From assembly GCA_020091685.1 (NCBI GenBank), contig CM034607.1, forward strand, positions 36,638,510-36,702,509: a stretch of DNA of 64,000 bases, in the 5' to 3' direction. The position numbers and the translations under genes are program-made. Position 1 is the first letter of the stretch; the number at the start of each line of letters is the position of its first letter. The stretch is from Lutjanus erythropterus. Taxonomy: Eukaryota; Chordata; Actinopteri; Lutjaniformes; Lutjanidae. Of the stretch, positions 16,823 to 59,621 are shown piece after piece. A model generated the notes under the pieces. That model had not been told where the DNA came from. It saw nothing but the letters and a program-made list of their open reading frames with translations, and made no database searches.

Positions 16823-17003
16823 ATGTCCTCCAGACTTCAGGAGCGGACAGATTCATTCAAACAGCAGCTGCTGACGGCACAGAGACGACATCTGATTGGA
16901 CACTTGGAGACAACAATATCCGGATATGAGGAGCAGATCGATCGACAACAGAAGCTGCTGGATGTGATTTTACAGCCTAAAATCAAACTGAGAGGAGCTG
17001 CAG
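16823..17003 (+). CDS. ZNF gene P, exon 1 (coiled-coil-like segment)
   Basis: ATG at 16823 opens MSSRLQERTDSFKQQLLTAQ. After about 60 codons the exon ends GCTGCAG before the donor GTTTGT, phase 1. The core (HLETTISGYEEQIDRQQKLL, then DVILQPKIKL) aligns with the first exon of the minus-strand units (FERTIAEYEETL....RQRRLLDAVFNPQLRL), so it is the same domain in a diverged form. A helix with heptad-like hydrophobics is likely and dimerisation is an inference. Unlike the minus-strand units, no (CA)n tract precedes the start. The upstream sequence has GCGGAAGTAG (ETS-like) at about 16671 and repeated GTTAGC words. It splices in phase to exon 2 (20084) or directly to exon 3 (22727). Confidence 0.82.
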
Positions 17004-20083: not shown

Positions 20084-20269
20084 AAACGGCAGATGTTCAG
20101 CAGTTGTCAGTGATTAAAGATTCATTCAAACAGCAGCTGCTGACTGCACCACGAGAGGATCTGATTGGACACTTTGAGACGACAATATCCAGATATGAAA
20201 AGGAGATTGATCGGCAACAGAAGCTGCTGGACGCGATTCTTCAGCCGGAAATAAAGCTGAGAAGAGCAG
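20084..20269 (+). CDS. ZNF gene P, exon 2 (second coiled-coil-like segment, chimeric exon)
   Basis: The exon follows TGTATTTCAG, starts in phase 1 (E-TADVQQLSVIK) and ends AGAGCAG before GTTTGT. It is 186 nt, a multiple of three with symmetric phase 1, so it can be skipped without breaking the frame. Its first dozen codons (TADVQQLSVIK) match the opening of the large ZNF exons (DVQQLLVNKEE). The remainder (DSFKQQLLTAPREDLIGHFE, then TTISRYEKEIDRQQKLLDAI) repeats exon 1. It is therefore a duplication in which the start of the large exon became fused to the coiled-coil exon. The gene product would carry two such helices in series. Confidence 0.8.
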
Positions 20270-51364: not shown

Positions 51365-52758
51365 GCAGGGGGCAGACATGAGCAGCATGGCCCCCAGACG
51401 CAAGTTTGACTTCAAGTTCAAAGAGCGAGTGTTACAGTATGCAGAGGAGACCTCCGGAGAGAAAGCTGCGAGACACTTTAACATCGACTCGAAGAGAATC
51501 AGGTACTGGAGGAAACAGAAGGACGAGCTGCTGTTAGCTGACAAGAGGAGAGCACGACTCGCTGGAGGCGGGAGGAAGAAAGTCAGCGTGGAGCTGGAGA
51601 GGAAACTGTCAGAGTGGATCTACTCCATGTGGGACAAACGTGACCCTGTGTCAGGAAACATGATCATAAACAAAGCGTTGGAGATCTACCCCTCAGTGAA
51701 GGATGGGGGTAAGATGTTTGTGGCGAGCCGGGGTTGGCTACAACGGTTTCTGCAACGCAACAACCTCTCGCTTCAACGCCGCCACACCAACACGACCCAG
51801 ACAGACACAGATCTGCTCACTGAGAGACTTGTTTCATTTGTTGACTTTGTTGGGAAGGTCGTCAGCTCTAAAAAGATCTCAGAGGAGGACATCATCGCGA
51901 TGGACGAGACCGTGGTTTGGTTTGATATACAAGGTGCGAGGGGACACGAGAAGAGCCACCTCACTGTTGTCCTAACCGCCAAGGCAGATGGCACAAAACT
52001 GAAGCCGTATATCGTCTTCAGAGAGGCTGCTGATGAAGCGGCAGCGATGCAGCAGCAGATATCCCGCGCAGTGATCGCCACGTCTGTGAACGGCTGGATG
52101 AACGACACTCTCACTGCTGATTGGCTGCAGTCTGTGGTGGGAAAATTCAGTCTGACCCCACGGCTCCTGGTGTGGGACTCGTACCGCTGCCACTTCGGTG
52201 CCGCCACCAAAGCTGAACTGAAACATGGCTATGATGTCACAACGGCAGTGATCCCGAGAGGCTGCACAAAGTCTATCCAACCCGCTGATGTGATGTGGAA
52301 ACAGACATTCAAACAGAATCTGCGGGACGCCTACAATCAGTGGATGGCAGGGGACGCAGATAAAGAGTACACCGCTGGAGGCCATCTAAAAGGCCCTGCC
52401 CACTGCCTTCTGGTGGACTGGGTGGTCTCAGCCTGGGACAAACTGGACCAGGATCTGATCAGGATGTCTTTTAAAGTCTGCGGACTGTCGGTGAAACCTG
52501 ATGGCAGCGAAGACGACCTTGTCTTCTGCTTCAGGGAGGGACAGCCCAGCGCCACCGGACGGGATGCTCTGACCCGCCTCCGACAGACAAGTCGACAGAA
52601 TGGTTTCCAGGCAGCTCATGATGAGGAAGATGAAGAGGAGCTGTTTAACAATGAGCTGGTTGTTTTTGATGATGATGAGGATGATGATAATGGTGAGGAT
52701 GAAGACTTTGGGAGTGAGGACAGTGACCACGTGTCCTGGTTCTGTTTCATTCATCATG
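51365..52758 (+). CDS. Pogo/Tigger-type transposase-derived exon of a transposase-ZNF-module chimera
   Basis: After the acceptor CTCTAATACAG, ATG at 51378 opens MSSMAPRRKFDFKFKERVLQ. Residues 8-53 are a Brinker-like DNA-binding helix region (KERVLQYAEETSGEKAARHF, IRYWRKQKDEL). Residues 62-140 are a CENP-B-type HTH (ELERKLSEWIYSM....RGWLQRFLQRNNLSL). Residues 165-330 are a DDE_1 domain with D176 (AMDETVVWFD), D267 (LLVWDSYRCHF) and D304 (SIQPADVMWKQTF). The catalytic triad is present, with 36 residues between the last two acids. Residues 414-450 are an Asp/Glu-rich tail. At codon 461 a consensus donor (ATG|GTGAGC, 52759) follows. No terminal inverted repeats flank it and the ORF is intact, so it looks domesticated. 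Predicted role: nuclear DNA-binding protein derived from a transposase. Confidence 0.88.
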
Positions 52759-52867
52759 GTGAGCTGTTATCATGTTCATGTTTCATCACATGATCTTCTT
52801 CATGTCATGAATTTCTGGATGTTCAAACATCCAAACACACTTTTATAATTGTCTGTCTGTGTTTCAG

Positions 52868-53307
52868 CTGTACCCTCGAACCACAAGAACCGGGTTCTGA
52901 TTAAAGAGGAGCAGCAGGAGCGGAGCCCCAGTCTGGACCAGGAGGACCCACCAGACCCCCAACACATTAAAGAGGAACAGGAGGAAGTCTGGACCAATCA
53001 GGAGGAAGAGCAGGTTCAAGGGCTGGAGGAGGCTGATCTCACCAAGTTCACGTTCACTCCTGTCCCTGTGAAGAGTGAAGAAGATGATGATGAAGAGAAA
53101 CCTCAGTTCTCACAGCTTCATCAAAGACAAACTGAACAGATGGAAACAGAATCCAATGGAGAGGACAGTGGAGGACCAGAACCAGACAGGAACTCGCATC
53201 CAGAGAGACATGAGGACTCTTCTGAACCTGAGACTGATGACAGTGATGACTGGACAGAGAGCAGAGAACCTCAGTCAGGTTTAAACTCTGAAAATAAGTC
53301 TGTGTGA
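52868..53307 (+). CDS. Second exon of the chimera: ZNF-cluster acidic/SUMO-consensus module without fingers
   Basis: After GTCTGTGTTTCAG the exon opens in phase 1, completing Ala of AVPSNHKNRVLIKEEQQERS and keeping the transposase frame (upstream exon ends phase 1). The rest is the cluster's acidic module: [91 protein letters not shown]. It ends SGLNSENKSV then TGA, exactly where fingers begin in ZNF genes. Total spliced product is 606 residues. Psi-K-x-E sites at about K473 (LIKEE), K495 (HIKEE) and K529 (PVKSE) are followed by acidic stretches. Alternative: two separate genes, but the matched phase and splice sites argue for one. Confidence 0.78.
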
Positions 53308-53309
53308 GC

Positions 53310-56300
53310 AAAAAGACTCGATCAGTATTCTGGTTTTTAGAACTGTACCAAATAGTTTGATGCTACATTTATAACACTGACCTTTGAATTCTAAATCAAT
53401 GTTTAAACTCAGTATTTCTGCACAGCTGTTGATAAAGATCACTAATATTAATAGTATTACACTATTTCTAGATTAGATAGGGGGATGATGTCATAAAATA
53501 TGATGACAGACATTCAAACCTTCAGAAAGTCTCAATAGAAACTGAATTTTAAAAAATCTAATGGTGGAAGCTTTGAATCGTCAGTCGATTGAGATTCTTC
53601 TAGTCGGCAGTCGTTTTTTTTTCCTCTGTCCATCAGTGTGCATCACAGTTACAGGATAAAATGATGAGACGTCTTTCTTTGTCTTTCCACTGTCCCAACA
53701 ATCACCAACTCTGATTTGGTCCAAATTAATCCTGAATTCACAGCGTGAAGGAACGTGGAGCGTGCAGCACAGGTGATGAGGACAACAGCTGCAGCCTCAG
53801 CAGAGAAGCTCTGCAGGTCCACTGATTTTAGAACATCACTTGGAAAGAACATAGAACATCACAAGGCGAGCCTCCAAATCTCTAGATGAAGTGTGGCTGC
53901 TGCCGCCGCGCCTGGCAGACATGTGAGCAGTGCTGCACATGGTTTCTGTGTGGACAGCACCAAAATGAAAAGGTAACACGATGCACCTGCGCTGCTCAAG
54001 CGTGTAGTTTGAACCAGCTGTAAGTTGCAGTTGAGTTGCATGACATAAAACACTCTGCAACGTACTGGAAACAATTACAGACTCAACTTTGCTAAACTAG
54101 TTTCACACAAAATGTTTCATTCCAAACATTTCAACTGATTTTAACTGATTTATTTCAACTGACAACACAAAGATGAACTAACCAGGGCCGCAACAAACAA
54201 TTATTTTGATTGTTGTATTGAATTCTTGAATTATTAATCCTGTCACAGTAGATTACAGCATCTTGGTATTGCACTGTGCATAGAATTTGCTTTACTTTCA
54301 GTGTGAGCAAACCTTCAGACACAGACAGTACAGCTTTAAGACTGTGGTGATTTTGTTCTGCAACAACTGACAGTTTACTTTGTAATAAATCAAACTTTGA
54401 TTGCTTTTACACACGATGCACAGGAGAGTTATTTAAACTGCTGAGTGAAATTATTTTTCTTTTTAATTTCTCTATGCAAGTGTACTTACAGCCAACTATG
54501 CAAAGTCCACATCGATAAACATCACTGTAAGATTAAAGTGGTTTGTAATCTGTAACTGACCAGATTATTTGTCTACAAATGAAGCCTGCTGGTGTTTTCA
54601 AACTGCACAGATCAGAAAAAAACAAACATGTCATCAGAGTTCCTCTGTTGATGATAGTTGGTGTAGAAGCTTCATCAGTAAGTCTCTCAGTCCTGCTCTC
54701 AGGTAGTCAAGTCCACTGTCACCTGCAGAGTCTCTGGGACAGCAACAAAACCAGCAGTCAGTGTTTCCTTTTTTTAATTTAGACTTTATATTAAACTTCA
54801 GGAAATGAGCCTCTGAATTAGACGCTGATACAAAGACACTGAATCAAATTAAACGAATGAAGAAATATCAAAATCTGCCACTGTCTTCCTTCAGGGAACA
54901 ACCAGTGAGGTGTAGAGCTGCAGTGTCTACTGTTGACCACTAGATGGCAGTAAGTCTGCTCCACATTCTCCACCTCACGCACTTAAAGATTTTGGTTTCA
55001 CTGAACAACCTTCACAATCCAAACTGGAAGAAAATAAATTCAGGATGAAATTGAAATTTTCTGAGTAAAAAGTGATTCTAAAAAAGTTACAATATTTACT
55101 GAATAAAGCTGTAATATTTTATGATTAAACTAATAAGACATCAGTATAAAAATATGTTTTAATGCAGCTTTTTTGAGGCCTCAGCAGACATCAGTCGTCC
55201 TCGAACAATGATTGAAAAGCTTCTGAGGAAATGAACTTATGTCCATGTTGTTCCTATTTATTAAAAGGTCATCTTCAGCTGCTGTTTCTGACATCTGTAT
55301 GAAGAATATGTCAAACTTTCAGGACCACTTCAGGAAAACAGTCTCATTTCATACAAGGTGCACATTTACAAAATCTATGGTTTGTATTACTGATGTCAAT
55401 TTTTCATTAATCATTGATCAAAGTCATACTGTTCTTTTTTTTTTTAGTAAAAAAGATGGCTCTTGTTATTTCTGGTTTGTTTTGTTTTGCCTTACTTGAA
55501 AATATGAAACATGGAAAGCTTTAATTTTAGATGCTGTATTTGTACCTACATCTCCAGCAATAAAAATACTTCAGAAGAAAATAGAAAGGAAGAAAAAAAA
55601 ACAGTGAATGTGAAGTGTGTCCAAACTGCTGACTGGTGCTGTATTTAACACTTTCTTCACTACGCCACACCTACTGAGTGATTTAACACTGTACGTGTTG
55701 GGAAGTAACATTACACATTGATTACTATTTCAAAACCAACGAATATTGTTTTTTATGCCCTGACACTGCAGATGGTTGGTGTTGAAACAAGTGAAGCTCT
55801 GAAGCTTTTCAGTGTCAGGTGCTAATAATTTAAAGGCCAACAAACCCCTAAATCTGGAGGCCAAAGTACATTTTTGGTGGTCCAAATGTGAACTGTAACA
55901 CTCTTGTTGTCCTCTCTTCCCATGAGTCAATGATGTGGTGTTTTCAGAGAAAACTGAACTAAAATGTGTGAAGCAATCAGGATGTTTGTGGACCTGTAAC
56001 GTTGTGTGGAGATAAAACTCAGTGGCCACAGAGTCACTTTTTGTGGCCACAAGCCCTCGGGTCACAGTTAATGTGCAACTCTGCTTGTTTCACTCCTTTT
56101 AATAAAGTACATCTGAGGCTTTAAATATCAGAGTTTGACTCAGTTTGATGCTCAAGTGATGAAGAAAAGAGGGAAGAATAATTCAGAAATAAGAGTCCTT
56201 TATGAAAATGTTCTTACTTTTGTTCTTGAACTTAGTCTCAAGTTCATTCCTGACTGTGTGTTAATCCTAAAATCAGTTCATAAACGATACTGAGCATAAA

Positions 56301-57847: not shown

Positions 57848-59364
57848 TCAAAGACACTTGTGACTTTTGACTTGATAATACCAAGTGAATCTTTTGTCAC
57901 AAACACTGCAGCTGTATCGTTTTTCCCCTGTGTGGATCACCATGTGCTGTGTCAGGTATCTTTCAATTGCAAATCTTTTACCACAAAACAAGCAGCCATA
58001 GGGTTTCTCTCTGGTATGAGTTCTCATGTGTGCCTTCAGACGGTGCTTACTCACAAATCCTCTCCCACACTGAGAGCAGCTGAATGATTTGCCGACAGTA
58101 TGAAACTGTGGGGACTCGCTGCCACACTTGTGACTTTTGAGCTGACAACGCCAGGTGAATCGTTCACCGCAAACGCTGCAGCTAAATGGCTTCTCCCCTG
58201 TGTGAGTTCTCATGTGAGATTTTAAATGTGCGTTCCGCGAAAAACATTTATGGCAAAGTGAACAGCTGAAAAGTTTTTCTCCTGTGTGGGTTCTCACATG
58301 TCTCTTTAGATCGAATTTGCAGTCAAATCTTTCTCCACACTCAGAACAGCTGAATGGTTTCTTGTCAGTGTCATTATTGTCATTATGTTTCAGACAGTTT
58401 AAACCTGACTGAGGTTCTCTGGTCTCTTCCCAGTCACCATCACTGACTTCAGTCTCAGGCTCAGAAGAGTCTGCAGTCTTGTCTTTAGTAAAAGGTTGTA
58501 AAAGTGTATCTAGATGTGAGTTCCTGGCTGCTTCTGGTCCTCCACAGTCCTCTCCATCAGCTTCTGTTTTTATCTGTTCAGTGGAGCTGCTGGTTGGAGG
58601 TTCTGTCTCTCTCTTCTCCTCAATTTGACTCGGATGAAGCTGTGACGATGGACGATTAACACAGTGATGCTTTTTCTGCTGACAACGCAAAGTGAATCCT
58701 CTCTCACAAACGCTGCAGCTGAACAGTTTCTCTCCTGTGTGATGGGTCATGTGTTGTGTCAGACTTGTCTTGTGTGTAAATCTTTTACCGCAAACAGGAC
58801 AACTAAATGGTTTCTCTCCAATGTGAATTCTCATGTGTTTCACTTTTGTTTTGCTGCCGAATGTTTTTACAAACTCCAAACAGAATGACTTCTCATCAGT
58901 GTTACATCTCAAGTCACTTACTGGGACATGGGAGTTTAAAACTGACTGAGGTTCTCTGGTCTCCTTCCAACCATCAGTTTTCAGTTCAGAAGAGTCTTCA
59001 GTCTTGTCTTCAGTATCAGGTGTTAAATGTGTAAATGTGTCCAGATGTGAGTTCCTGTGTGGTTCTGGTCCTCCACAGTCCTCTCCATCAGCTTCCCTTT
59101 CCATCTGTTCAGTTTGTCTTTGATGAAGCTGCGAAGACTGAAGTTTCTCTTCATTGTCATATTCACTCTTCACAGGGACATGAGTGAATGTTAACTTGGT
59201 GATATCAGCCTCCTCCAGCCCTTGAAGCTGCTTTCCTTCCTGATTGGTCCAGACTTCCTCCTGTTCCTCTTTAATGTGTCGAGACTCTGGGTCCTCCTGG
59301 TCCAGACTGGGGCTCCACTCCTGCTGCTCCTCTTCACCAGCTGCCTCTTTAGGGGCATCTGAGG
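57848..59364 (-). CDS. C2H2 zinc-finger protein, unit E, large exon (two modules, 9 fingers)
   Basis: The exon follows TTTGTGTTTCAG (ends 59365) and opens in phase 1 as [20 protein letters not shown]; the DVQQLL opening of the other units is replaced. With the intact first exon (61638-61830) the product is 569 residues. Layout: acidic module ([21 protein letters not shown]); three fingers, the first degenerate ([17 protein letters not shown]); a second module ([20 protein letters not shown]); then six fingers. Fingers 3, 6 and 9 end H-x-C type (KKHHC, KSHKC, KSHKC). The protein stops immediately after the last, KSHKCL. Predicted nuclear DNA-binding role, target unknown. Candidate polyadenylation signal not clear. 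Confidence 0.91.
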
Positions 59365-59621
59365 CTGAAACACAAACATACAGCAATTTGCATGAATCTT
59401 AACAATAACTGTGATAACTGGCTAAATTATCACAGTTCAGTTGTTGCTTTCACCTCCATCAAGTGAAACCCTGACCATGACTTTGGGTACATTCACTGGT
59501 GTAACTAAAACTGAGCAGGTTTGTCATCACAGAAACAGATCATAAAATTGTGATATTTATTTTATTATTTTATATTTATTTTATTTATTGTAACTTTGAT
59601 GACATCTGTTGTGTCAACCTC

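Follow-up and report, generated by a model that had tools for sequence, protein, structure and literature searches.

Is an intact transposase frame that ends at a splice donor, and is followed in phase by part of a zinc-finger gene, a mobile element, a relic, or a gene of its host? The question is raised by a locus (51378 to 53307, plus strand) in a stretch of 64,000 nucleotides from the fish Lutjanus erythropterus (GenBank assembly GCA_020091685.1, contig CM034607.1, positions 36,638,510 to 36,702,509; hereafter, the window), where an earlier note had proposed a fusion of a pogo-type transposase with the acidic module of a cluster of zinc-finger (ZNF) genes. We find that the window gene is apparently an in-frame, splice-joined chimera of these two parts and, most likely, a real host-transposase fusion. 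The explanation that we favor, and consider fairly probable, is a domesticated host gene, present once at the locus, that derives from a pogo-type (Passer-like) transposase turned into the first coding exon of a C2H2 gene. The fusion, its age and its domestication are well supported; the further step to a repressor is one that we infer.

Architecture of the probable chimeric gene

Exon 1 (51378..52758; 460 codons plus 1 nt) is a 1381-nt open frame that starts with an ATG at 51378, a second ATG at 51387 being common to the relatives, and ends at a phase-1 donor (52759). The phase-1 intron (52759..52867, 109 bp), whose donor position is common to the relatives, runs from GTGAGCT to TTTCAG and leads into exon 2 (52868..53307, 440 nt, phase 1), which encodes the acidic module of a fish ZNF family and closes with a TGA at 53305-53307. 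Spliced in silico, the two exons, both on the plus strand, give a protein of 606 residues, with 460 transposase and 146 module codons open, in agreement with the coordinates given in the earlier note. The window gene possesses one trait of the ZNF-cluster family, the acidic HIKEEQEE...PVKSE module in a phase-1 exon, and lacks another, the finger array after the module; a canonical-spacing scan of the plus strand from 43000 to the end of the window detected no C2H2 fingers. No ZNF-type first exon that might serve the acidic exon in place of the transposase was detected on the plus strand between 20268 and 52868, and the only candidates on that strand (16862-16999 and 20131-20268) were rejected as weak and far off.

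The Brinker-like and CENP-B-like domains recognized by the earlier note are both present. Each above its curated Pfam cut-off, and in the order typical of pogo-derived proteins, exon 1 encodes a Brinker-like DNA-binding domain (BrkDBD, 31.8 bits; residues 7-51, 51396..51530; profile match to Brinker 2glo, E 3e-4), a CENP-B/Tc5-type helix-turn-helix (HTH) domain (HTH_Tnp_Tc5, 55.7 bits; residues 72-133, 51591..51776; profile match to the CENP-B DNA-binding part 1hlv, E 5e-14) and a DDE_1 catalytic domain (residues 193-365, 51954..52472). As in pogo-derived proteins, a DDD triad (D176 at 51903, D267 at 52176, D304 at 52287) is placed on an RNase H-like fold, and the predicted fold models well; the gap between D267 and D304 is 36 residues, to be compared with the DD35D spacing of the Passer family. 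We tentatively take the transposase to be Passer-like by its domain make-up. Passer transposons, as characterized in PMC9976928, have a single open reading frame (ORF) of 400-500 residues that encodes Brk and HTH motifs together with a DDE domain, as does the window exon. The three aspartates named in the earlier note are all in place; however, the loop after D176 counts 12 residues, whereas 10 of the 12 other fish transposases that were scored, out of 17 examined, have 27, and because of this short loop, catalysis by the window protein is doubtful, the intact triad notwithstanding.

The same junction in other percomorphs

Protein searches, each of which scored about 7,990 candidates, so that the species list is a lower bound, recovered the same architecture in predicted proteins of Dicentrarchus labrax (P0002), Scatophagus argus (P0003, P0004 and P0121) and Siniperca chuatsi (P0001), and the exon pair for which the earlier note had recommended a search in other percomorphs is accordingly found there. 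The junction in these models (marked here by a slash) reads ...CFIHQ/ALPSN..., at the same residue as ...CFIHH/AVPSN... in the window. Three DNA-derived proteins from short contigs end in ...CFIHQ GEL (P0010 and P0012) and ...CFIHR GKL (P0013), which is consistent with read-through past a donor, G/GTGAGC or G/GTAAGC, at the junction of the window gene. The window protein differs by 24-29% from the nearest percomorph models and clusters with Dicentrarchus, Scatophagus, P0010, P0012 and P0013 at 97/93 in a tree of 27 transposase parts and at 95/91 in a 35-row tree. The Dicentrarchus P0002 and Scatophagus P0003/P0004/P0121 models, the deposited names being ZSCAN12, ZSCAN12-like, ZSCAN2-like and ZNF184-like, share both the exon pair and the junction with the window and are probable orthologs of its gene, differing in that C2H2 fingers follow the module and the third D is lost. 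The transposase-module fusion looks old and common to several percomorphs, and probably predates the split of the window fish from Dicentrarchus and Scatophagus. No nucleotide relatives were confirmed in viral and prokaryote contigs.

The catalytic residues of this lineage have fared unevenly. In a table of eight members, the window and P0013 retain the third D, whose place is taken by N in Dicentrarchus, Epinephelus lanceolatus (P0122), P0010 and P0012, and by A in the Scatophagus and Siniperca rows. The loop that follows the first D has 3 residues in Scatophagus, P0010 and P0013, and none of the eight combines the third D with a 27-residue loop. This table leaves out Scatophagus P0004 and P0121 (transposase part identical to P0003), E. 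coioides P0017 (third D replaced by N; no ZNF module seen), Xyrichtys P0005 (first D replaced by N, third D present; a different junction, and not counted as an ortholog) and Cheilinus P0080 (which lacks the DDE domain). The third D is present in all 12 rows of the type found on contig C24 of the window species (of which 6 may be unfused; see below) and in 14 of 15 scored other rows. The combined loss of the third D or the 27-residue loop across the lineage fits a domesticated DNA binder.

Several other models show further arrangements of such parts. That of E. lanceolatus (P0122, 1309 residues), whose junction, ...HCITHQ/DVKNVIAVKEEQQEW, is related without being the same, joins a pogo transposase to a ZNF module and a full piggyBac transposase (PF13843); its sole finger match, which accompanies the module, is weak and falls slightly short of the Pfam cut-off. 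In Thunnus maccoyii P0043 and P0054 and Pampus P0159, the order is reversed, with ZNF sequence followed by the pogo DNA-binding part alone at the C-terminus. Scatophagus P0003, P0004 and P0121 (isoforms X3, X2 and X1) combine one transposase exon with three differing module/finger arrangements, possibly because a single DNA-binding exon is alternatively spliced to different sets of fingers.

Genomic copies and an apparent sister fusion

A search of the 938-Mb genome with the transposase exon (92 of 102 candidates scored) yielded one relative at 70% identity, on contig C24, the other 49 matches listed being at most 34% identical. Among the listed matches, a single close relative stands in place of the several similar copies characteristic of a mobile Passer transposon. 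Also among these matches, 25 (for example, C4:37247397-37247771) contain a 177-residue open frame, a multicopy DNA-binding ORF whose identity to the DNA-binding part of the window protein (residues 7-132) is approximately 32-33%. A mobile Passer transposon is flanked by a TA target duplication and by terminal inverted repeats (TIRs), which measure 18-32 bp in PMC9976928, and no TIR of that size was found around the ORF in the window, in agreement with the earlier note. Three inverted pairs (I4, I7 and I12; 14-16 nt, 81-93% complementary) bracket the ORF; they are no better than the other listed pairs, and two have an arm inside exon 2.

The C24 relative belongs to the same transposase lineage (L014 1410-3609 onward; C24 from 457687) and appears to be fused itself, to a different C2H2 exon: a phase-1 donor at L014 position 2713 is followed by an 896-bp interval and then by sequence encoding MSVIIQTRGEVGGG...CPLCGHF. 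When joined, the L014 model aligns across the junction to Siniperca P0007 and Enoplosus P0006 at 69-70%, and the CPLCGHF-type C2H2 exon partner is seen as well in models from Siniperca, Enoplosus, Sebastes, Epinephelus and Cebidichthys. The putative L014 donor lies in the acidic tail of the transposase, within about 2 residues of a second phase-1 donor candidate in the window (52693, G/GTGAGG; ATG/GTGAGG, 52693..52698, plus strand). Because donor-like sites occur in the coding sequence of the transposase tail in both genomic copies, in-frame capture would be favored. The window and C24 fusions could be separate captures or one duplicated domesticated gene, and the tree does not separate the two. 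Possible, if rather unlikely, is the scenario in which percomorphs repeatedly captured a single pogo-type lineage as a 5' exon ready for use, owing to the phase-1 donors (G/GTGAG) in its acidic tail, with the window copy feeding a SUMO-acceptor ZNF module and the C24 copy another C2H2 protein; the window copy would then have lost its fingers, so that its effector would have been re-aimed wholly by the DNA-binding domains of the transposase.

Constraint on the transposase exon was gauged against the C24 paralog (434 codons, NG86). The ratio of nonsynonymous to synonymous substitution rates (dN/dS) is 0.206 (bootstrap 0.148-0.281) overall, and 0.092, 0.227 and 0.382 for the DNA-binding part, DDE domain and tail, respectively, all rough values because dS is approximately 0.9. 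Identity to Dicentrarchus is 89% in BrkDBD, 85% in HTH, 77% in DDE and 68% in the module.

A predicted fingerless protein with candidate SUMO-acceptor sites

The earlier note presented the gene as a chimera without fingers whose stop falls where fingers begin in the ZNF genes. The position of the stop is borne out: within 53275..53307 (plus strand), homology to the finger-bearing exons ceases at 53297-53299, and the stop comes directly after; six neighboring copies align beyond this point, and against 4 of them the window has a 2-nt gap there, marking the probable site of finger loss. The window copy indeed has no fingers, but this is probably not the founding state. Because the modules of the Dicentrarchus and Scatophagus models lead into C2H2 fingers, the simplest reading of the fingerless condition is that it is derived, by a loss that perhaps occurred more than once among fishes, given that fingers are also missing from the models of Siniperca (where the end of the module is read off-frame), Xyrichtys (P0005) and Cheilinus (P0080, which consists of the DNA-binding part and the module). 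Dispersed repeat pieces at 53557-53834 (53667-53834 has 40 other matches in the genome, and parts of 53557-53661 have 5), before which no matches are listed for 53281-53556, lie near this site and may have aided the deletion. The first AATAAA 3' of the stop, a candidate polyadenylation signal, is at 54384..54389 (plus strand).

The provenance of the module departs from the earlier suggestion that it was borrowed from the neighboring ZNF genes. Because the exon pair is common to other percomorphs, the module is probably not a recent borrowing and may have a source other than the adjacent genes. Its start (A-L/V-P-S-N...KEEQQE) is closer to a minority ZNF type, represented by P0100, P0105 and P0108 (3 of 26 ZNF-only rows that were chosen for containing HIKEE or IKEEQ), than to the ADVQQLL...PPEQQ type. 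Among the five modules in the window with the start read, three are of the ADVQQLL...PPEQQ type or near it; a fourth window module (57848-59386), like that of the fusion, lacks the PPE stretch. An attempt to identify the donor ZNF gene from a module tree failed, the tree being unresolved and the first residues alone informative; beyond these residues, the sequence is too exchangeable between modules for dating.

The module also contains candidate SUMO-acceptor motifs. Three psi-K-x-E motifs, IKEE at K473 (52900..52911), IKEE at K495 (52966..52977) and VKSE at K529 (53068..53079), all on the plus strand, account for 3 of 7 tail lysines versus 0.14 expected in shuffles (p 0.00035), and the motif scan found none in the transposase part. 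When 6 other fused models (from 5 species) were scanned with a slightly wider pattern, motifs 1 and 2 were present in all 6 and motif 3 in 5. In 20 ZNF modules identified by the exon junction among the fetched proteins, psi-K-x-E occurs 39 times and the reverse motif not once, which suggests SUMO control across the wider fish ZNF family. Activation by transcription factors can be limited by SUMO-acceptor motifs that they contain (the synergy-control motif, PMC3554661), and an effector role of the tail is plausible in view of these motifs. We infer that the tail is a SUMO-dependent repressor aimed by the DNA-binding domains of the transposase.

Proposed origin of the gene and alternative explanations

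The history that we envisage starts with a pogo-type transposase that, presumably by insertion, ended up 5' of a phase-1 acceptor in a C2H2 gene of a fish and was taken up as the first coding exon of that gene, the phases and the junction being shared with models from other species and splicing in the window being presumed. The ancestral protein would have carried the DNA-binding domains of the transposase and a DDE domain in decay, together with the acidic module and zinc fingers, and deletion of the fingers in the window lineage would have left the 606-residue protein, with the DNA-binding parts of the transposase as the only recognizable ones. In such a protein, BrkDBD and the CENP-B-like HTH would bind TIR-derived or related sites, the RNase H-like domain, folded but probably inactive, may dimerize, and the acidic tail, with SUMO attached to as many as three of its psi-K-x-E sites, would recruit SUMO-dependent corepressors. 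The window protein is probably a DNA-binding regulator, as the earlier note had envisioned.

Several observations weigh against this account. The proteins of the relatives are deposited gene predictions rather than observed transcripts, and, in the window, a donor farther upstream scores better than the one at 52759. In the transposase trees, Siniperca P0001 and E. lanceolatus P0122 fall outside the window clade, on weak branches among rows of the other fusion type, a placement that could reflect either gene conversion or separate capture; in the module tree, 11 of 17 inner branches are open and the fused modules are not united. The window transposase retains all three D, the loop has its full 27 residues in Siniperca P0001 and P0012, loops of 17-27 residues among the scored C24-type rows imply that shortening is not confined to the window lineage, and the first D is lost in other fish transposases (P0021, P0024 and P0028). 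The interval reflected in the dS to the C24 copy may include the transposon life of both copies. The module evolves loosely, with dN/dS of 0.52-0.74 against five neighboring modules, because of which constraint on the tail looks looser, and the SUMO-acceptor motifs are short and predicted from sequence alone.

A rival explanation is a decaying remnant, in which an ancestral fusion was functional, the loss of fingers in the window lineage began pseudogenization, and the 606-residue frame is a relic so far unbroken. The abrupt end of homology and the gap beside the stop, the weak constraint on the module and the fingerless, off-frame Siniperca model speak for such decay; yet the full set of transposase and module codons is open although the protein has diverged by 24-29% from its nearest percomorph counterparts, conservation is highest in the DNA-binding part, and the Xyrichtys and Cheilinus models have no fingers either, so we regard this explanation as unlikely. 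It is far less likely that there is no fusion in the window species at all, with the transposase ending at 52793, where its unspliced frame meets a stop 35 nt beyond the donor, and the acidic exon belonging to a dead ZNF gene downstream. That extension of the frame speaks for this reading, but the junction falls at the same residue in three other genera, the GEL/GKL ends of the DNA-derived proteins are consistent with GTGAG and GTAAG donors there, the intron is merely 109 bp with matching phases, and no other ZNF first exon was detected on the plus strand from 20268 to 52868. As for a mobile pogo-type element recently inserted beside a ZNF exon, the three catalytic D and the well-modeled fold are in its favor; nevertheless, the lack of a TIR of published size, the single close relative among the listed genome matches, the short catalytic loop and the recurrence of one junction across several percomorph genera led us to reject it as extremely improbable.

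Relation to known fusions and significance

KRABINER reportedly differs from the window gene in transposon family, lineage and order of parts, and carries a KRAB module. It and other tetrapod fusions resemble the window gene in joining the DNA-binding part of a transposase to a host regulatory domain (Cosby et al. 2021, a survey of transposase capture in tetrapods, as cited in PMC12062965). The kind of gene described here is already known, from POGK, POGZ and other pogo-derived genes (PMC7386202). Like the window gene, POGK joins a full pogo transposase (BrkDBD, HTH_Tnp_Tc5 and DDE_1), with a triad that is only partly conserved, to a regulatory module of a zinc-finger family; however, POGK is mammalian and has KRAB near the N-terminus (PMC7386202), whereas the module of the window gene is C-terminal, non-KRAB and of a fish ZNF family, and no KRAB was found among the Pfam matches to exons 1 and 2 up to E 1. 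POGZ is a pogo-derived protein with zinc fingers (PMC7386202), like the finger-bearing relatives of the window gene, but its fingers are near the N-terminus, in contrast to their C-terminal position in those relatives and their absence from the window copy. No description of this fish fusion was found in the titles and abstract openings of the literature searched, and a term search of PMC10547256 returned no occurrence of transposase or fusion.

Those titles and abstract openings describe neither the fish partner nor the order of the parts, the range of fishes that have the fusion or the secondary finger loss. The percomorph case is one in which a pogo-type transposase replaces the first exon of a zinc-finger gene in several genera, with the catalytic residues mostly lost and, in some lineages, the fingers lost as well. 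These steps lend themselves to comparison from one species to the next. Moreover, the SUMO-acceptor tail, common to other members of the fish ZNF family, indicates a testable effector.
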